64,000 bases of DNA from Marivibrio halodurans (GTDB lineage: Bacteria; Pseudomonadota; Alphaproteobacteria; UBA8366; Aestuariispiraceae): assembly GCF_017963645.1 (NCBI RefSeq), contig NZ_JAGMWN010000003.1:248001-312000 (forward strand). The letters run 5' to 3'. The first letter of the stretch is position 1; each line of letters begins with the position of its first letter. Shown here one piece after another: positions 55,444 to 64,000 of this stretch. The position numbers and the translations under genes are program-made. Below the pieces are notes generated by a model that did no database searches, was not told the origin of the DNA, and saw only the letters and a list, made by a program, of their open reading frames with translations.

Positions 55444-57222
55444 CTACGCGCCCCGCTGCGGACGCATGTCGGCGGGGTCGATGCCGGCGACGACGTTGGG
55501 CTTCTTCATCGCGTCGCGGCGGAAGGGTTCGCCCAATTCCTGGTTCAGGATAACCTCGATGAAGGTGGTGACCTTGTCGGTCATCTGCGCCTTGATCGCG
55601 GCATCGAGCGCCTTGGTCAGCTCGTCCATCGTGGTGACCTGCACGCCCTTATGGCCGCAGGCATCGGCGATCCCGGCATAGCTCACGTCGAGATCGAGTT
55701 CCGTGCCGACGAAATTATCGTCGAACCAAAGCGTGGTGTTCCGCTTCTCCGCGCCCCACTGATAGTTCCGGAAGATCACCATGGTGACCGGCGGCCAGGG
55801 ATCGCGGCCGACGGCGGTCATCTCGTTCATGGAAATACCGAAGGCGCCGTCGCCCGCGAAACCGACCACCGGCACGTCGGGACAGCCGATCTTGGCGCCG
55901 CAGATCGCCGGGAAGCCATAGCCGCAGGGACCGAACAGGCCGGGGGCCAGATATTTCCGCCCTTCCTCGAACACCGGATAGGCATTGCCGATCGCGCAGT
56001 TGTTGCCGATGTCGGAGGAGATGATCGCCTCGCGCGGGAGGGCCGCCTGGATCGCGCGCCAGGCCATGCGCGGCGACATGCGCTCCGGCTCGCGGTCGCG
56101 GGCGCGCTGGTTCCAGCTCGTCCCCGGATCGTCGTCCTCGTGATCCATGGAGGACAGAGCCTGCAGCCAGCGCGAACGGGTCTCCGCCACCAAATCGCGC
56201 CGTGCCTGCCGGCCGCTATCCCCGGCGGAGGCGTCGAGACCGTCCAGAAGACGCTCCGCCACCTGACGGGCATCGCCCTGGATGGCGACGGATACCTTCT
56301 TGGTCAGACCGATCCGGTCGGCGTTGATATCGACCTGGATGACCTTCGCGTCCTTCGGCCAATAATCGATGCCGTAGCAGGGCAAGGTCGAGAAGGGATT
56401 GAGTCGCGTGCCGAGCGCGAGCACCACATCCGCCTGGGCGATCAGTTCCATCGCCGCCTTCGAGCCGTTATAGCCGAGCGGCCCGACCGAGAGCGGATGC
56501 GAACCGGGGAAGGCGTCGTTGTGCTGATAGCCGCAGCAAACCGGCGCGTCCAGCCGTTCCGCCAGGGCGCGCGACGCGTCGATGCCGTTCGCCAGAACGA
56601 CGCCCGCGCCGTTCAGGATCACGGGGAACGAAGCCCCGGACAGCAGCTTCGCCGCCTCCGCGATCGCCTTCTCGCCGCCGGAGGGGCGTTCGATCTCCAC
56701 CACCTGCGGCAGATCGATATCCACCACCTGGGTCCAGAAGTCGCGCGGCACGTTGATCTGGGCCGGGGCGGAACCGCGCCACGCCTTTTCGATCACGCGG
56801 TTCAGCACCTCCGCGATGCGGCTGGGGTCACGCACCTCCTCCTGATAGCAGACCATGTCCTCGAACAGCGCCATCTGCTCGATTTCCTGAAAACCGCCCT
56901 GGCCGATGGTCTTGTTGGCCGCCTGCGGCGTGACCAACAGCATCGGCGTATGGTTCCAGTAGGCCGTCTTGACCGGGGTGACGAAATTGGTGATGCCGGG
57001 ACCGTTCTGGGCGACGGCCATGGCCATCTTGCCGGTCGCGCGGCTATAGCCGTCGGCGATCATCCCGGCGTTACATTCGTGCGCGCAATCCCAGAAGGTG
57101 ATACCGGCCCGGGGAAACAGATCGGATATCGGCATCATGGCCGAGCCGATGATGCCGAAGGCATGCTCGATCCCGTGGCGCTGAAGCACCTTAACGAAGG
57201 CCTCCTCGGTGGTCATCCTCAT
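55444..57222 (-). CDS. xsc: Sulfoacetaldehyde acetyltransferase
   Basis: A 592-residue ThDP enzyme that turns sulfoacetaldehyde and phosphate into acetyl phosphate and sulfite, the sulfonate-cleaving step of taurine and related C2-sulfonate catabolism. ThDP features: the catalytic Glu in WDCAHECNAGM near 50 and the GDGAFGISMNEMTAV Mg-diphosphate motif near 475. Xsc-type runs such as FGIIGSAMMPISDLFP and NYQWGAEKRNTTLWFDDNF are present. No pta or taurine-pyruvate transaminase lies nearby. It is divergent from a PotDABC-like transporter. Confidence 0.92.
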   Translation of the reverse strand: MRMTTEEAFVKVLQRHGIEHAFGIIGSAMMPISDLFPRAGITFWDCAHECNAGMIADGYSRATGKMAMAVAQNGPGITNFVTPVKTAYWNHTPMLLVTPQAANKTIGQGGFQEIEQMALFEDMVCYQEEVRDPSRIAEVLNRVIEKAWRGSAPAQINVPRDFWTQVVDIDLPQVVEIERPSGGEKAIAEAAKLLSGASFPVILNGAGVVLANGIDASRALAERLDAPVCCGYQHNDAFPGSHPLSVGPLGYNGSKAAMELIAQADVVLALGTRLNPFSTLPCYGIDYWPKDAKVIQVDINADRIGLTKKVSVAIQGDARQVAERLLDGLDASAGDSGRQARRDLVAETRSRWLQALSSMDHEDDDPGTSWNQRARDREPERMSPRMAWRAIQAALPREAIISSDIGNNCAIGNAYPVFEEGRKYLAPGLFGPCGYGFPAICGAKIGCPDVPVVGFAGDGAFGISMNEMTAVGRDPWPPVTMVIFRNYQWGAEKRNTTLWFDDNFVGTELDLDVSYAGIADACGHKGVQVTTMDELTKALDAAIKAQMTDKVTTFIEVILNQELGEPFRRDAMKKPNVVAGIDPADMRPQRGA

Positions 57223-57780: not shown

Positions 57781-58959
57781 ATGAAGAAAGACACCACGAG
57801 CCAGAAATCCTCGCGCGCCACGCAAAAAGCGCTGCGCGGCTTCACCCGCCGGCAACTGCTGAAGAGCGCGGCGGTCACCGGCATCGCCGTCGCGGCCGCG
57901 CCCGCCTTCGTGCGCGACGCCTTCTCCTCCTCCGGCGAGATCAACATCCTGATGTGGTCGGACTATCTGCCGGAACCCTTCATCAAGGCCTTCACGGACG
58001 CCACCGGCATCACGGTCAACTACACCGGCATCGGCTCCAACGAGGAAATCATCAACAAGATGAAGGCGACGCAGGGCCAGGGCTTCGACATCGTCAGCCC
58101 GACCAACATGCGCTCCCTGCAGTGGGAGCCGCTGGAACTGCTGCAACCTTTCGACTACGGCCGTATCCCGAACCTGGAGAACGTCAACCCGGCCATGCTG
58201 AAGGTCGGCGACACGGAGTGGAACTTCGACGGCAAGGGTTCGCACTGGCTGCCGCATATCTGGGGCACCGAGGCGATCGGCTGGCGCATCGACCTCTACA
58301 CCCCGCCGGAAGGCGTTCCGAGCTACGGCGCGGTCTGGGATCCGGCGAACGCCGGCAAGACCATGGGCCGCCCGCACTCGATGATGCTGGGTGCCGGCCT
58401 TTACCTCGAAGGCGCGGGCGAGCTTGCCCCGGGTTCGATGCGCAAGGCCTATGAGAGCGAGGAGGCCATGCGCCCGATCTGGGACCAGGTCACCAAGTTC
58501 TGCATCGACCGGAAGGAGAACATCAAGCTCTTCTGGAACGACGCCGACACGCAGAAGAACGCGCTTCTCAACGAAGGCGTGACCGTCGGCCAGACCTGGG
58601 ACGGCCCGCCGCTCGCCATGAAGACCGAGGGCGAGCCGGTCACCTATCAGGCGCCGAAGGAAGGCGCGCTGGCCTGGGTCGACGGCATGTCCATGCCGGT
58701 CGGGGCGCAGAACGTGGATGCGATCTATACCTTCCTGGAGTTCGCCTACCAGCCGAAGCCGGCCGGCGAGGCGATCGACCACCACGGCTACAACTCCGCC
58801 GTCCTGGGCGCCGACAAGCATGCCGGCGATAGCTACAAGAAGAACTTCGCCGAGGCCTATCCGGGCGACGCGCTCAACAACCTCTGGCCTTGGCCGAAGG
58901 AGCCGGTCTGGTACGCGGAGGTCCGTACCGAGTACCGGAACAAGTTCGTCAACGCGTGA
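57781..58959 (+). CDS. Tat-exported PotD-like substrate-binding protein
   Basis: A 392-residue periplasmic binding protein of the polyamine/iron (PotD/AfuA) class. The Tat signal FTRRQLLKSAAVTG lies at about 21-34 with cleavage near residues 40-45, and a GGGAGA site sits 10 bp upstream of the ATG. The mature protein starts EINILMWSDYLPEPFIKAF, typical of PotD-like proteins. Being divergent from xsc suggests a sulfonate or amine ligand. First gene of an SBP-ATPase-permease-permease operon. The substrate is inferred only from context. Confidence 0.88.
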   Translation: MKKDTTSQKSSRATQKALRGFTRRQLLKSAAVTGIAVAAAPAFVRDAFSSSGEINILMWSDYLPEPFIKAFTDATGITVNYTGIGSNEEIINKMKATQGQGFDIVSPTNMRSLQWEPLELLQPFDYGRIPNLENVNPAMLKVGDTEWNFDGKGSHWLPHIWGTEAIGWRIDLYTPPEGVPSYGAVWDPANAGKTMGRPHSMMLGAGLYLEGAGELAPGSMRKAYESEEAMRPIWDQVTKFCIDRKENIKLFWNDADTQKNALLNEGVTVGQTWDGPPLAMKTEGEPVTYQAPKEGALAWVDGMSMPVGAQNVDAIYTFLEFAYQPKPAGEAIDHHGYNSAVLGADKHAGDSYKKNFAEAYPGDALNNLWPWPKEPVWYAEVRTEYRNKFVNA

Positions 58960-59114: not shown

Positions 59115-60218
59115 ATGAGCCAAGCCGCGGTGGAATTGGATTCCGTCACCATCAAGTTCGGTGATTTCGTCGCCGTCCGGGATGTGAATATCGATATCGG
59201 CGACGGGGAATTCTTCAGCTTCCTCGGCCCCTCCGGCTGCGGCAAGACGACCCTGCTGCGCGCGGTCTCCGGCTTCCTGGAGCCGACGGATGGCCATGTG
59301 CGCATTCACGGCAACGACATGGCCGGTATCGGGCCGAATGTGCGCCCCACCGCGCTGATCTTCCAGAATCTGGCGCTCTTCCCGCTTATGACGGTGTGGG
59401 AGAACATCGCCTTCGGGCTCGAGGTGCGCGGCGTCGGCAAACGGGAACGGCGCGACCGCGCGGAGGAACTGCTCGACCTGATCGCGCTGCCCGGCCAAGG
59501 CGACAAGATGGTGAGCGAACTTTCGGGCGGCCAACGACAGCGCGTGGCGATCGCCCGCGCGCTGGCCGTGGAGCCGAAGGTGCTACTGCTCGACGAGCCG
59601 CTCTCGGCCCTCGACCTCAAGCTGCGCCAACATATGCGGACCGAACTGCGCGCCATCCAGCAGCGCGTCGGCATCACTTTCATCTATATCACCCACGACC
59701 AGGGCGAGGCGCTGACCATGTCCGACCGCATCGCGGTCATGAGCGCCGGCGTGGTCGAACAGGTCGGCAAGGGCGCCGACATCTACGACCGCCCCGACAG
59801 CGCCTTCGTGGCCAGCTTCGTGGGCGAGAACAACGCCTTCCGCGGCCGTGTCACGCAAATATCCGGCGATGAAGTGAAGCTGGAAGGGCGGCAGGGCCAA
59901 TTGGTGGGCCGGTTCAATCCCGACAACCCGGTGCGCGAGGGGGACGAAGCCTATCTCTTCGTCCGGCCGGAGAGCTTCAAGTTCGCCGATGCCGCCAATG
60001 CGGACGCCGTCAACACGATCAAGGCCACGGTGCGCGAGGACGAGTTCGAGGGTAGCTTTCACCACCTGATCCTCGCCGCCGGCGAGGATGATTATGTGCG
60101 CATGTCGCTGACCAATGACGGCAGCCATAGCAGCAATCTCAAGGGCGCCGAGCAAAGCGTCCGGTTCGAGCCCGCGCGCGGCGTGGTCTTGCCGATCGGC
60201 CCGCTCGCGACCGAGTAA
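59115..60218 (+). CDS. PotA-like ABC transporter ATPase
   Basis: A 367-residue cytoplasmic ATPase. Walker A GPSGCGKTTLL is near 38, the signature LSGGQRQRVAIARAL near 137, and Walker B VLLLDEPLSALD near 158. The switch His lies in ITHDQGEALTMSD. The C-terminal region (about 240-367) is the TOBE regulatory domain typical of PotA/AfuC. Energises import by the following permeases; GGAGG precedes the start. Confidence 0.95.
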   Translation: MSQAAVELDSVTIKFGDFVAVRDVNIDIGDGEFFSFLGPSGCGKTTLLRAVSGFLEPTDGHVRIHGNDMAGIGPNVRPTALIFQNLALFPLMTVWENIAFGLEVRGVGKRERRDRAEELLDLIALPGQGDKMVSELSGGQRQRVAIARALAVEPKVLLLDEPLSALDLKLRQHMRTELRAIQQRVGITFIYITHDQGEALTMSDRIAVMSAGVVEQVGKGADIYDRPDSAFVASFVGENNAFRGRVTQISGDEVKLEGRQGQLVGRFNPDNPVREGDEAYLFVRPESFKFADAANADAVNTIKATVREDEFEGSFHHLILAAGEDDYVRMSLTNDGSHSSNLKGAEQSVRFEPARGVVLPIGPLATE

Positions 60219-60253: not shown

Positions 60254-61183
60254 ATGAGTCTCAAGCGCTGGATGACAGGCTTCATGGAGAAGAACGGTCT
60301 TCTCGTGGGTCTCTATATCCTGGGCGCGGTGACGCTCTGGATCGTCTTGATGATCGTCCTGCCCCAGCTTTTCATGCTGGACTTCTCGTTCCGCTACAAT
60401 CTGCCCCCGGCGGAAATCGGCGGCCCGAAGGACGTCTACACGCTCTCCAACTACAAATACCTGATCTACGGCAGCGCCGGCAGCGCCGCCGACTATAACT
60501 GGATCGACCTTTCGGTCTTTCTGCAGACGATCATCGCGGCGGTCTTCGTCACGCTGATCGACCTCGCGCTGTGTTATCCGATCGCCTATTACCTTGCCCA
60601 CACGGCGAAGGGGGCGACGGGGCGGCTGCTGATCCTCTCGCTCATCATCCCCTATTGGGTGAATGAAATCCTGCGCGCCTTCGCCTTCCGAATCATTTTC
60701 GGGGCCAGCGGCGTGATCAACAATTTCCTCGTCTATCTCGGCCTGATCGATCAGCCGATCGACTTCATCCGCGAGGATGTCGCGCTCTATACCGGGCTCA
60801 GCTACGCCTACATCCTGCTGATGATCTTCCCGATCTATAACGCCGTGGAGAGCCTGGACCGCAATCAGGTAGAGGCCGCGCGGGACATGGGCTCGGGCTG
60901 GCTGCGCATCCATTGGCGCATCGTCATCCCCTTCGCCAAGCCCGGCATCGCGTCCGGCTGCACCATGGTCTTCATGCTGACGGCCGGCGCGCTGGCGGCG
61001 CCCCAGATCCTGGGCGGGCCGTCCAGCCTGTGGTTCACGCAATTGATCGTGCAATGGTTCAACACCGGCGGTAACTGGCCACGGGGCAGCGCCTATGCGA
61101 TCGCGTTGCTGATCGCGTGCGTCGCCTTCGTGCTGTTCATGATGCGCGTCTTCAAGATCCGGGTGGGAGAGATCGGCCGATGA
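60254..61183 (+). CDS. PotB-like ABC transporter permease
   Basis: A 309-residue inner-membrane permease with six membrane segments. The EAA loop is present in VEAARDMGSGWLRIHWRIVIP, the site that contacts the ATPase. Start MSLKRWMTGFMEKNG. Its end overlaps the next permease by 4 bp (ATGA), so both are made together and should form a heterodimer. Confidence 0.93.
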   Translation: MSLKRWMTGFMEKNGLLVGLYILGAVTLWIVLMIVLPQLFMLDFSFRYNLPPAEIGGPKDVYTLSNYKYLIYGSAGSAADYNWIDLSVFLQTIIAAVFVTLIDLALCYPIAYYLAHTAKGATGRLLILSLIIPYWVNEILRAFAFRIIFGASGVINNFLVYLGLIDQPIDFIREDVALYTGLSYAYILLMIFPIYNAVESLDRNQVEAARDMGSGWLRIHWRIVIPFAKPGIASGCTMVFMLTAGALAAPQILGGPSSLWFTQLIVQWFNTGGNWPRGSAYAIALLIACVAFVLFMMRVFKIRVGEIGR

Positions 61184-62538
61184 AATCCCATCACATGATG
61201 AAGCTGATGATCGGCTTCTATATCGTCCTTTTCTTCGGCTATCTGTTCGGCCCGCTCATCATCATGAGCATCACGGCCTTCAACAGTTCCGATTTTCCGC
61301 GTGTCAGCCCATGGGATTGCTTCACGCTGGAATGGTTCCCGGAACTGCGCCAGGACCGCTTCCTGGTGGAAGGCTTCCAGAACAGCCTGGTGATCGGCGC
61401 GGGCGTCATCGCGTTGGCCGTTCCGATCGGCCTGGCGGGCGCGCTGCTGCTGACGCAGCTCGGGCGGCGGGCGCGTTCCGGCTTCTATACGCTGATGATC
61501 TCGCCGATCCTTGTGCCGGGGGTCGTGCTCGGCATCTCGACCATCATCTTCTGGCGCCGCATGGGCGAGATGATCGGCGTGCCGGGGGAGGATAATTTCC
61601 TCTATGAGGGAATTTTCATGACGATCCTCGGCCAGTCGACCTTCATCTCGGCCTTCACGATGCTGGTCTTCGTCGCACGCCTGCAACGCTTCGATCCGGC
61701 GCAGGAGGAAGCGGCCCTCGACCTCGGCGCGACCAAGCCTCAGGCCTTCCGGAAGGTCCTGCTCCCCTTCCTCAAGCCGGCGATCGGCTCGGCCGCCGTG
61801 CTGGCCTTCCTGGCCAGCTTCGAGAACTACAACACCACCGTCTTCACGATCCTGCAGGACAAGACGCTGACCACCGTGCTGGCGAGCAAGGTGCGCTACG
61901 GCATCGACCCCTCGATCAGCGCGCTGGCGGTGCTGATCGTCTCGCTGACGCTGGTCGCGGCCTTCGTCTACGAAGTGCTGCGCCGCCGCGAGCAGAAGGA
62001 GGCGCGGGAGATCGAGGCCCGCGCCCGCGCCGCCGAACGGCTGGAGATGCAGGAAGTCGCGCAAGGCGAGGGCGGCGAGGACGGCCCGGCGAGGAGCGCC
62101 GCGGAAATCCGCGCCGAACTGCCGGCGGCCTCCGGCAAGGGGTTCACCCTTCAGGCGCATCATCTGGCGATCGTGCTGGCGCTCATCGCGGTCGCGGGCA
62201 TCGCGAAGCTGATGCTGACCGACGATGTCTATGCCGCCACCGCCTGCAAGGAGGAAATCCGGCAGGAGAAACTTGAGCGCCAGCAGGAACTCCTGGAGAA
62301 GCAGCGTCAATTGATGCAGGAGCGTCAGCAGCAGGAACAGGGCGAGAAAGCCCCGCGCAGCGGCGACTACCAGTCCATCTTCGACCCCGGCAATCTGCAG
62401 GGCGACGGAGAGGAAGGCAGCGACGCCGAGCAGGCTCCGGAGGCCCCCGCCACCAGCGACGGCCAGTCCTCCAACGATGGAAAGGATTACCAATCCATCT
62501 TCGACCCGGGGAACCTGCAATCGGAAGAAGGAAACTGA
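61180..62538 (+). CDS. PotC-like permease with unique C-terminal extension
   Basis: A 452-residue membrane protein. Residues 1-265 are an ordinary PotC-like permease, with EAA loop EEAALDLGATKPQAFRKVLLP. PotC proteins are about 265 residues, so the rest is an addition: a charged coil (270-320), an extra membrane segment (about 328-347), a Gln/Glu-rich coiled coil (357-385) and two copies of DYQSIFDPGNLQ (396-407 and 436-447). With the permease C-terminus inside, the last part would be periplasmic. Whether it contacts the SBP or cell wall is open. The start overlaps PotB. Confidence 0.88.
   Translation: MKSHHMMKLMIGFYIVLFFGYLFGPLIIMSITAFNSSDFPRVSPWDCFTLEWFPELRQDRFLVEGFQNSLVIGAGVIALAVPIGLAGALLLTQLGRRARSGFYTLMISPILVPGVVLGISTIIFWRRMGEMIGVPGEDNFLYEGIFMTILGQSTFISAFTMLVFVARLQRFDPAQEEAALDLGATKPQAFRKVLLPFLKPAIGSAAVLAFLASFENYNTTVFTILQDKTLTTVLASKVRYGIDPSISALAVLIVSLTLVAAFVYEVLRRREQKEAREIEARARAAERLEMQEVAQGEGGEDGPARSAAEIRAELPAASGKGFTLQAHHLAIVLALIAVAGIAKLMLTDDVYAATACKEEIRQEKLERQQELLEKQRQLMQERQQQEQGEKAPRSGDYQSIFDPGNLQGDGEEGSDAEQAPEAPATSDGQSSNDGKDYQSIFDPGNLQSEEGN
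62365..62520 (+). repeat. Duplicated 12-residue DYQSIFDPGNLQ motif
   Basis: The two 36-bp copies, at 62365-62400 and 62485-62520, differ at six positions, all of them synonymous third-codon bases. This suggests selection to keep the peptide. Confidence 0.95.
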
Positions 62539-62573: not shown

Positions 62574-63152
62574 TCAATGCCGGCGGCGGTCGGTCTCCTC
62601 TTGCTGATTGATCAACTCGGCGTCGAGCAACGGCGCGGCATCGATCTTCTCGGCGCCCATCATGTTGGCGACCCGTTGCAGGACGGCGACGATCATCGTC
62701 TGCTCCCAATCCTCCAGCGTGGCGAAGCGTGCCGAGAACTGATCATGCAGCGCCATGGGCGCGCGCTTGAGCAGAGCGAACCCCTCCTCCGTCACGCTGA
62801 CATAAACCTTGCGCTTGTCGGTGTCGCCGCGTGTGCGGCGAACCAGACCGTCCTGTTGCAGGCGATCAACGATCGTGGTGACGGAGGCCTGGGCGAGCTT
62901 CACTTCCGCCGCGATCTCTCCCACCGTCATCTCGCCGCTGTCCGCAATCGACTGGAGGACCAGCAATTGCGACGTCGTCAGATTCGTCGCCCGGCCCAAC
63001 GCCTTGGCATGGCTGTCCGTCGCCCGCAACACCCGGCGGATCGCGATCAGGGCATCATTCAGCTTGTCCAAACCCGTGTCCCACCGTGTGCTGGCCGGGG
63101 CCGCATCCATGTTCGCGCCGCCCGACGGTTTCGCCCGTCTTGTATCCGTCAT
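62574..63152 (-). CDS. ectR: EctR-like MarR-family regulator
   Basis: A 192-residue winged-helix repressor. The wHTH covers about 60-125 (LTTSQLLVLQSIADSGEMT, then LAQASVTTIVDRLQQDGLVRRTRGDTDKRKVYV split). The N- and C-terminal dimer helices fit MarR proteins. It is divergent from ectA across a palindrome-rich gap, the EctR arrangement seen in many ectoine producers. It probably represses ectA at low salt. Confidence 0.87.
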   Translation of the reverse strand: MTDTRRAKPSGGANMDAAPASTRWDTGLDKLNDALIAIRRVLRATDSHAKALGRATNLTTSQLLVLQSIADSGEMTVGEIAAEVKLAQASVTTIVDRLQQDGLVRRTRGDTDKRKVYVSVTEEGFALLKRAPMALHDQFSARFATLEDWEQTMIVAVLQRVANMMGAEKIDAAPLLDAELINQQEETDRRRH

Positions 63153-63458: not shown

Positions 63459-64000
63459 ATGGAAGGCACATTGAACTTTCCGAACGAGGCAAAGGCCGGC
63501 ACGTCGCCGACGCCGTCCAGGCAGGACGAGCGGGCGCGCCGCCTGGAGCGATTGACCCTGCGCAAGCCGCGCACGGAGGATGGGGCGGGCGTCAACGCGC
63601 TGATCGCCAAGTGCGAGCCGCTGGACGAGAACTCCGTCTACTGCAATCTCCTGCAATGCTCGCACTTCGCCGACACCTGCGTGGTGGCGGAATTGGACGG
63701 CGAGCTCGTCGGGTTCGTTTCCGGCTATGTCGTTCCGGAAAAGCCGGAGCATTTCTTCGTCTGGCAGGTGGCCGTCGCCGAGGAGGCCCGGGGCCTATCG
63801 CTCGCGAAACGCATGATCCTGGACATCCTGAGCCGAAACAGCCTGACGGGTGTGACGGAGCTTCATACGACCATCACTCCGGACAACGCCCCGAGCCAGA
63901 AGCTTTTCTCCTCCGTCGCGCGAACGCTCGAGACCGGCGTGCGCCGCAAGGTGATGTTCTGCGAGGAACAGCATTTCGACGGCGACAAGCCGAGCGAGAT
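63459..64000 (+). CDS. ectA: L-2,4-diaminobutyrate acetyltransferase EctA (3' end outside window)
   Basis: The first committed acetyltransferase of ectoine synthesis; it makes N-gamma-acetyl-diaminobutyrate from diaminobutyrate and acetyl-CoA. About 180 codons are present, starting MEGTLNFPNEAKAG. The GNAT fold shows in FVWQVAVAEEARGLSLAKRMI (acetyl-CoA loop), and the EctA pattern in LHTTITPDNAPSQKLF. The length here nearly reaches the family total (about 170-190), so little is missing. ectB and ectC are expected next to the right. Confidence 0.94.
   Translation, partial: MEGTLNFPNEAKAGTSPTPSRQDERARRLERLTLRKPRTEDGAGVNALIAKCEPLDENSVYCNLLQCSHFADTCVVAELDGELVGFVSGYVVPEKPEHFFVWQVAVAEEARGLSLAKRMILDILSRNSLTGVTELHTTITPDNAPSQKLFSSVARTLETGVRRKVMFCEEQHFDGDKPSE

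Follow-up and report, generated by a model that had tools for sequence, protein, structure and literature searches.

A PotABCD-type importer permease with a conserved, probably disulfide-anchored arm of repeated short motifs

The window analysed here, a 64,000-nucleotide stretch of the Marivibrio halodurans genome, encodes a PotABCD-type importer whose second permease carries a conserved, probably disulfide-anchored, multivalent motif arm with a predicted and testable function. This PotC-like permease starts at an ATG that overlaps the stop of the PotB-like gene upstream. It qualifies as a type I ABC importer permease by its match to BPD_transp_1 (PF00528; 54.4 bits against a gathering score of 26.4) and its EAA-type coupling segment, EAALDLGA, at residues 177-184. 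The initial annotation had described it as about 180 residues longer than PotC proteins. Indeed, it has 452 residues, whereas relatives without the tail have about 264-300, hence an extension of about 150-190 residues. This extension runs from about 62005 (about residue 276) to the C-terminus, and therefore begins further upstream than position 62140, where it had first been placed. The importer genes, the divergent neighbour and the elements of the extension are as follows.

55444-57222, minus strand: xsc, sulfoacetaldehyde acetyltransferase, divergent neighbour (TIGR03457, 932.9 bits against a cut-off of 676.4)
57781-58959, plus strand: twin-arginine solute-binding protein (SBP), PotD/PotF-like, proposed partner of the motif (SBP_bac_8, E 6.3e-18)
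59115-60218, plus strand: PotA-like ABC ATPase with TOBE_2 (ABC_tran, E 9.1e-34)
60254-61183, plus strand: PotB-like permease (BPD_transp_1, E 3.3e-12)
61180-62538, plus strand: open reading frame of the PotC-like permease with a predicted periplasmic tail (BPD_transp_1 at residues 81-270, E 1.8e-14)
61318-61320, plus strand: codon of Cys47 in the first periplasmic loop (P1); Cys in 30/30 tail-bearing and 0/44 tail-less proteins of the tree set, and in 5/5 held-out proteins
62005-62163, plus strand: cytoplasmic linker after TM6, residues 276-328; weakly conserved (pN/pS 0.66 against the congener), mostly net positive ahead of TM7
62164-62220, plus strand: added seventh transmembrane segment (TM7), residues 329-347; Kyte-Doolittle (KD) value 2.46 over 19 residues, hydrophobic in 30/30 tails
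62245-62247, plus strand: codon of Cys356, 6-10 residues past TM7; invariant in all tails, predicted disulfide partner of Cys47
62248-62343, plus strand: charged (E/Q/R/K) helical stalk, residues 357-388; AF2 helix with confidence >70 only at about residues 361-380; pN/pS 0.30
62365-62400, plus strand: motif copy 1, DYQSIFDPGNLQ, residues 396-407; pN/pS 0.07 against the congener, conserved in relatives
62485-62520, plus strand: motif copy 2, DYQSIFDPGNLQ, residues 436-447; differs from copy 1 only by six synonymous changes

The tail matched no Pfam domain and no PDB chain, and the Pfam scan of the whole protein returned only the ABC permease domain. It had been considered at the outset that the extension might be absent from all relatives. 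Searches across genomes instead recovered it in 35 PotC homologues from two classes, Alpha- and Gammaproteobacteria, including a second species of the genus, other alphaproteobacterial families, and gammaproteobacterial MAGs. Each tail has the seventh transmembrane segment, an invariant Cys just past it, a charged helical stalk, and a motif-bearing region that is presumably disordered. When the tail profile was run against a draw of 385 genomes from the class, matches with E < ~1e-15 were real tails and weaker ones covered TM6 only; in the family of genome G370, 6 of 149 genomes carry the tail. In Ruegeria, Leisingera, Aliiroseovarius, and Paroceanicella, the gene lies on large plasmids and is annotated as an 'ABC transporter permease' of 411-434 residues. 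A full-length profile search later supplied a held-out set of five tail-bearing proteins, each of which has both cysteines and the motif. The M. halodurans genome also contains a second PotABCD-type operon (G000:C11:754223-758500) with neither tail nor Cys47, whose PotC is about 47-50% identical and whose SBP is 37% identical, and which offers a natural tail-less control.

The tail is predicted to be periplasmic. E. coli PotC has six transmembrane helices and periplasmic loops P1-P3 (PMC11414716), so that a seventh segment would carry the C-terminal region to that side. The extra membrane segment noticed initially is backed by hydrophobicity, since the stretch between TM6 and the invariant Cys is hydrophobic in 30/30 tails (KD 1.6-2.7). 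The charge ahead of TM7 is net positive in all 30 tails but two, where it is 0, and few positive residues stand just after it. Residue 47, in the TM1-TM2 loop, is never Cys in 44 tail-less relatives, where it is mostly Gly, while Cys47 and Cys356 occur together in 30/30 tail-bearing proteins and in the five held-out ones, with no exception. Cys47 is present even in L009, whose contig ends ahead of the tail. This strict co-occurrence, which the initial annotation had not noted, leads us to predict a disulfide holding the arm to the periplasmic face, and a bond between the two residues is its simplest reading. Hydrophobicity, positive-inside charges and the cysteine pair thus support the periplasmic placement originally suggested for the motif, and the pair is a clean handle on topology. 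Two other roles for the tail cysteine were ruled out, a lipobox by the sequence contexts of Cys356 (VDQC, ATAC, and PAQC) and a disulfide with the SBP by the absence of the SBP Cys from the tail-bearing systems L023, L079, L080, and L083. Beyond TM7, an E/Q/R-rich, helix-like segment stands where a Gln/Glu-rich coiled coil had been proposed, and such a coil remains putative. An AF2 model of the full permease, built from five sequences, reached a pLDDT of 45.7 and a pTM of 0.21 and was discarded.

The motif DYQSIFDPGNLQ is present twice, exactly, in the permease extension. As first reported, the two 36-bp DNA copies differ at six sites only, all of them third-codon positions and all synonymous; the chance that six random changes would all be synonymous is about 7e-5. 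The relatives, which the initial annotation did not cover, reveal a more general motif, [FY]xx[IV]F[ADS]Px[NGS]L, in one to three copies per tail, with a single copy in several species and two or three copies common. The strict expression finds 48 motifs in 30 tails, whereas 500 shuffles of these sequences yield none. Within one subclade, four tails carry degenerate forms such as SPFAPGNL or NGIFAPQNL. Across the 4.18-Mb genome, YxxIFxPxNL has no match beyond the two permease copies, and in eight tail-bearing genomes the matches outside tails are about as frequent as in a reversed control. In the genomes tested, other proteins thus share the motif no more often than chance would predict. In L038 (G016:C1:250346-250479), two copies are nearly identical in DNA, with one synonymous change, which points to recent internal duplication as a source of motif copies in some lineages.

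The motif codons are under strong purifying selection, while the linkers between them are nearly free. Between the window permease and that of its congener L033, the core of the permease has a pN/pS of 0.18, TM7 and the stalk have 0.29-0.30, and the linkers of the C-terminal region have 0.84. The first motif copy has 0.07 and the second 0.36, both rough values that rest on 12 codons each. Neighbouring motif copies inside one protein differ in the same manner (pS 0.59, pN 0.17). We infer from selected motifs set in nearly free linkers that these are short linear binding motifs on a disordered strand. The view that the peptide is conserved by selection has therefore held up, both in this contrast and in the retention of tail and motif across relatives.

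A single gain of the tail is probable. The PotC tree unites 29 tail-bearing proteins in one clade (99/96) and places the long-branched L053 just outside it, a topology compatible with a single gain, with a gain and a loss, or with two gains. In the SBP tree, 27/27 tail-bearing systems form one clade (98/88), whose nearest outgroups are the tail-less L112, L116, and L118; no split tail gene was found downstream of these three near relatives. The cysteine-tail association therefore reflects mainly one joint origin followed by strict retention, which weakens the statistics and leaves the retention itself unaffected. Finally, the tail tracks one clade of PotABCD-type transporters and not linkage to xsc, as had been conceivable from the window alone: among the loci examined, xsc adjoins the importer only in the window's genus, and the tail-less L112 also lies beside xsc.

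What does the arm do? We favour, at a little short of an even chance, a PotC-like subunit whose periplasmic arm captures the cognate SBP. TM7 would take the chain across the membrane, and a disulfide between Cys356 and Cys47 of the P1 loop would fix the base of the arm on the periplasmic face, the presumed site of SBP docking; PotD is known to dock on that face of PotBC (PMC11414716). The charged helix would then raise the arm off the membrane, and a disordered strand would display the one to three motifs, so that stalk and strand together could search the space around the pore. The motifs would serve as docking peptides holding the operon's own soluble, Tat-exported SBP weakly at several sites, and these multiple weak sites would increase the local SBP concentration near the pore. 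Binding of the SBP by the motif had been raised in the initial annotation, and the SBP as candidate partner remains a reasonable hypothesis. The specific claim that the importer recruits free SBP without a covalent link, by short linear motifs arrayed on a periplasmic arm that is disordered and anchored by a disulfide, is more tentative.

Several observations favour capture. The motif occurs in all tails, degenerate in one subclade, and is selected while the linkers are not. The SBPs of the tail-bearing systems form one clade, and the SBP is co-inherited with the tail. Indeed, the only genes common to all tail-bearing loci with enough flanking DNA are those for the SBP, the ATPase, PotB, and PotC, which makes the SBP the sole soluble periplasmic protein co-inherited with the tail; its twin-arginine RR is invariant in 25 orthologues. 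Compared with the SBP of the window, that of the congener is 86% identical and those of more distant members of the tail clade are 49-72% identical, against 37-54% for most tail-less systems. However, the SBPs of L112 and L116 are 61-64% identical and belong to systems without the tail, so such an SBP works tail-free, which counts against capture, as does a cysteine association that represents one or two origins rather than many. SBP positions that changed along with the tail, comparing tail-bearing systems with tail-less relatives, outlined no evident binding patch. An AF2 model of the SBP was of moderate confidence (71.4). In the degenerate-motif subclade (L076, L078, L087, and L122, the last not inspected for this change), the SBP sequence KGSHW near residues 154-158 has become xxxYW, which may reflect either a change coupled to that of the tail or a shift in substrate.

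The close relatives with a similar SBP and no tail would also fit an arm that docks the importer to another envelope component found in both classes, such as an outer-membrane channel, a lipoprotein, a peptidoglycan enzyme, or another importer, and so positions it close to where nutrients enter. The length of the tail would let it span part of the periplasm, and repeated motifs suit scaffolding. However, no partner is co-encoded, the neighbours differ from locus to locus, and a ubiquitous partner would need to fit both Alpha- and Gammaproteobacteria; we consider such docking unlikely, if credible. We are more doubtful that the motifs bind back on the importer, whether at its periplasmic gate or at the face on which the SBP docks, and act within the molecule as a lid or regulator that loaded SBP displaces. 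The predicted Cys47-Cys356 disulfide would keep the arm beside the gate, and a single motif suffices in several species. However, apart from Cys47, few PotC core positions changed along with the tail, although more would be expected had the core acquired a new binding site, and two or three motif copies are common.

It is improbable that TM7, the disulfide, and the stalk merely stabilize or assemble the permease, with the motif region as a minor or chaperone-binding element. TM7, the Cys, and the stalk are conserved (pN/pS ~0.3) and the motif is degenerate in one subclade, but between congeners no part of the tail is better conserved than the motif (0.07 in copy 1), which has been retained in many families. 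A functionless tail arising by low-complexity drift, read-through, or expansion is scarcely believable: some tails have recent internal repeats of near-identical DNA (L038) and the linkers evolve almost neutrally, but the tail is conserved in two classes, the gene is annotated as a single long coding sequence in Ruegeria, Leisingera, Aliiroseovarius, and Paroceanicella, and the pN/pS contrast and the coupled cysteines, confirmed in the held-out proteins, contradict drift.

The window importer resembles PotABCD and PotFGHI of E. coli (PMC11414716, PDB 8y5h) in its SBP, ATPase, and two permeases, in the fold family of the permeases, and in the homology of its SBP to PotD and PotF. Unlike the six-helix, tail-less PotC, its permease has the seventh transmembrane segment, the paired cysteines, and the motif arm; hydrophobicity, charges, and the Cys pair predict a topology other than the six helices and cytoplasmic C-terminus of PotC and PotI. 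Both proteins score below the NCBIfam equivalog cut-offs, the permease with 134.6 bits against 476 for PotI and 115.1 against 326 for PotC, and the SBP with 102.6 against 582 for PotD and 84.4 against 636 for PotF. The substrate is probably not a polyamine. The high local concentration of binding protein that we propose near the pore recalls OpuA-type importers, whose fused binding domains reach about 4 mM (PMC11065425). However, the coupling is covalent there, while short motifs would hold a separate SBP non-covalently here; indeed, the SBP has its own gene and the permease contains no binding domain of the OpuA/GlnPQ kind.

Eukaryotic signalling offers well-known examples of short linear motifs that are repeated and under selection. 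In the open-access literature searched, we found nothing relevant on periplasmic linear motifs or on this tail, no account of the proposed way of coupling importer and SBP, and no described case of such motifs on the permease of an ABC importer in the periplasm of bacteria. If the arm does hold the SBP, it would be a third solution, beside free and fused SBPs, for keeping these proteins near the pore, and the local-concentration effect could be tested by varying the number of motifs in one gene. Since the system occurs in cultured marine bacteria (Ruegeria, Leisingera, and Aliiroseovarius), it is accessible to experiment.

Judged from gene neighbourhood only, the importer probably takes up taurine or another omega-amino compound. 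In the window the importer adjoins xsc; in L112 (2671-11001) genes for a class-III aminotransferase and Xsc come after the tail-less near-relative operon, which suggests that a taurine-type substrate is older than the tail; and at other tail-bearing loci a MocR-type regulator and an omega-aminotransferase are encoded nearby. In proteobacteria, the use of taurine and GABA is controlled by regulators of the MocR type (PMC5320631). A possible role in taurine uptake would be shared with TauABC and the TRAP system TauKLM (PMC5320631), although the importer is of the PotABCD type and belongs to neither. Further neighbours, namely phosphate transporters, a sulfatase-family enzyme, and a MetE-like protein, leave doubt on the substrate. 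The gene for this MetE-like (Meth_synt_2) protein directly follows that of the tail-bearing permease in loci from Gammaproteobacteria and in G043 (L022:8167-9222, L023:7357-8409, L024:7290-8357, and L034:10448-11500). In the window, the importer is followed by a MarR-family regulator (62577-63152, minus strand), which we presume may be EctR, and then by ectA (63459-64000, plus strand), encoding diaminobutyrate acetyltransferase (TIGR02406, above cut-off), so that the ectoine synthesis genes start right past the importer.
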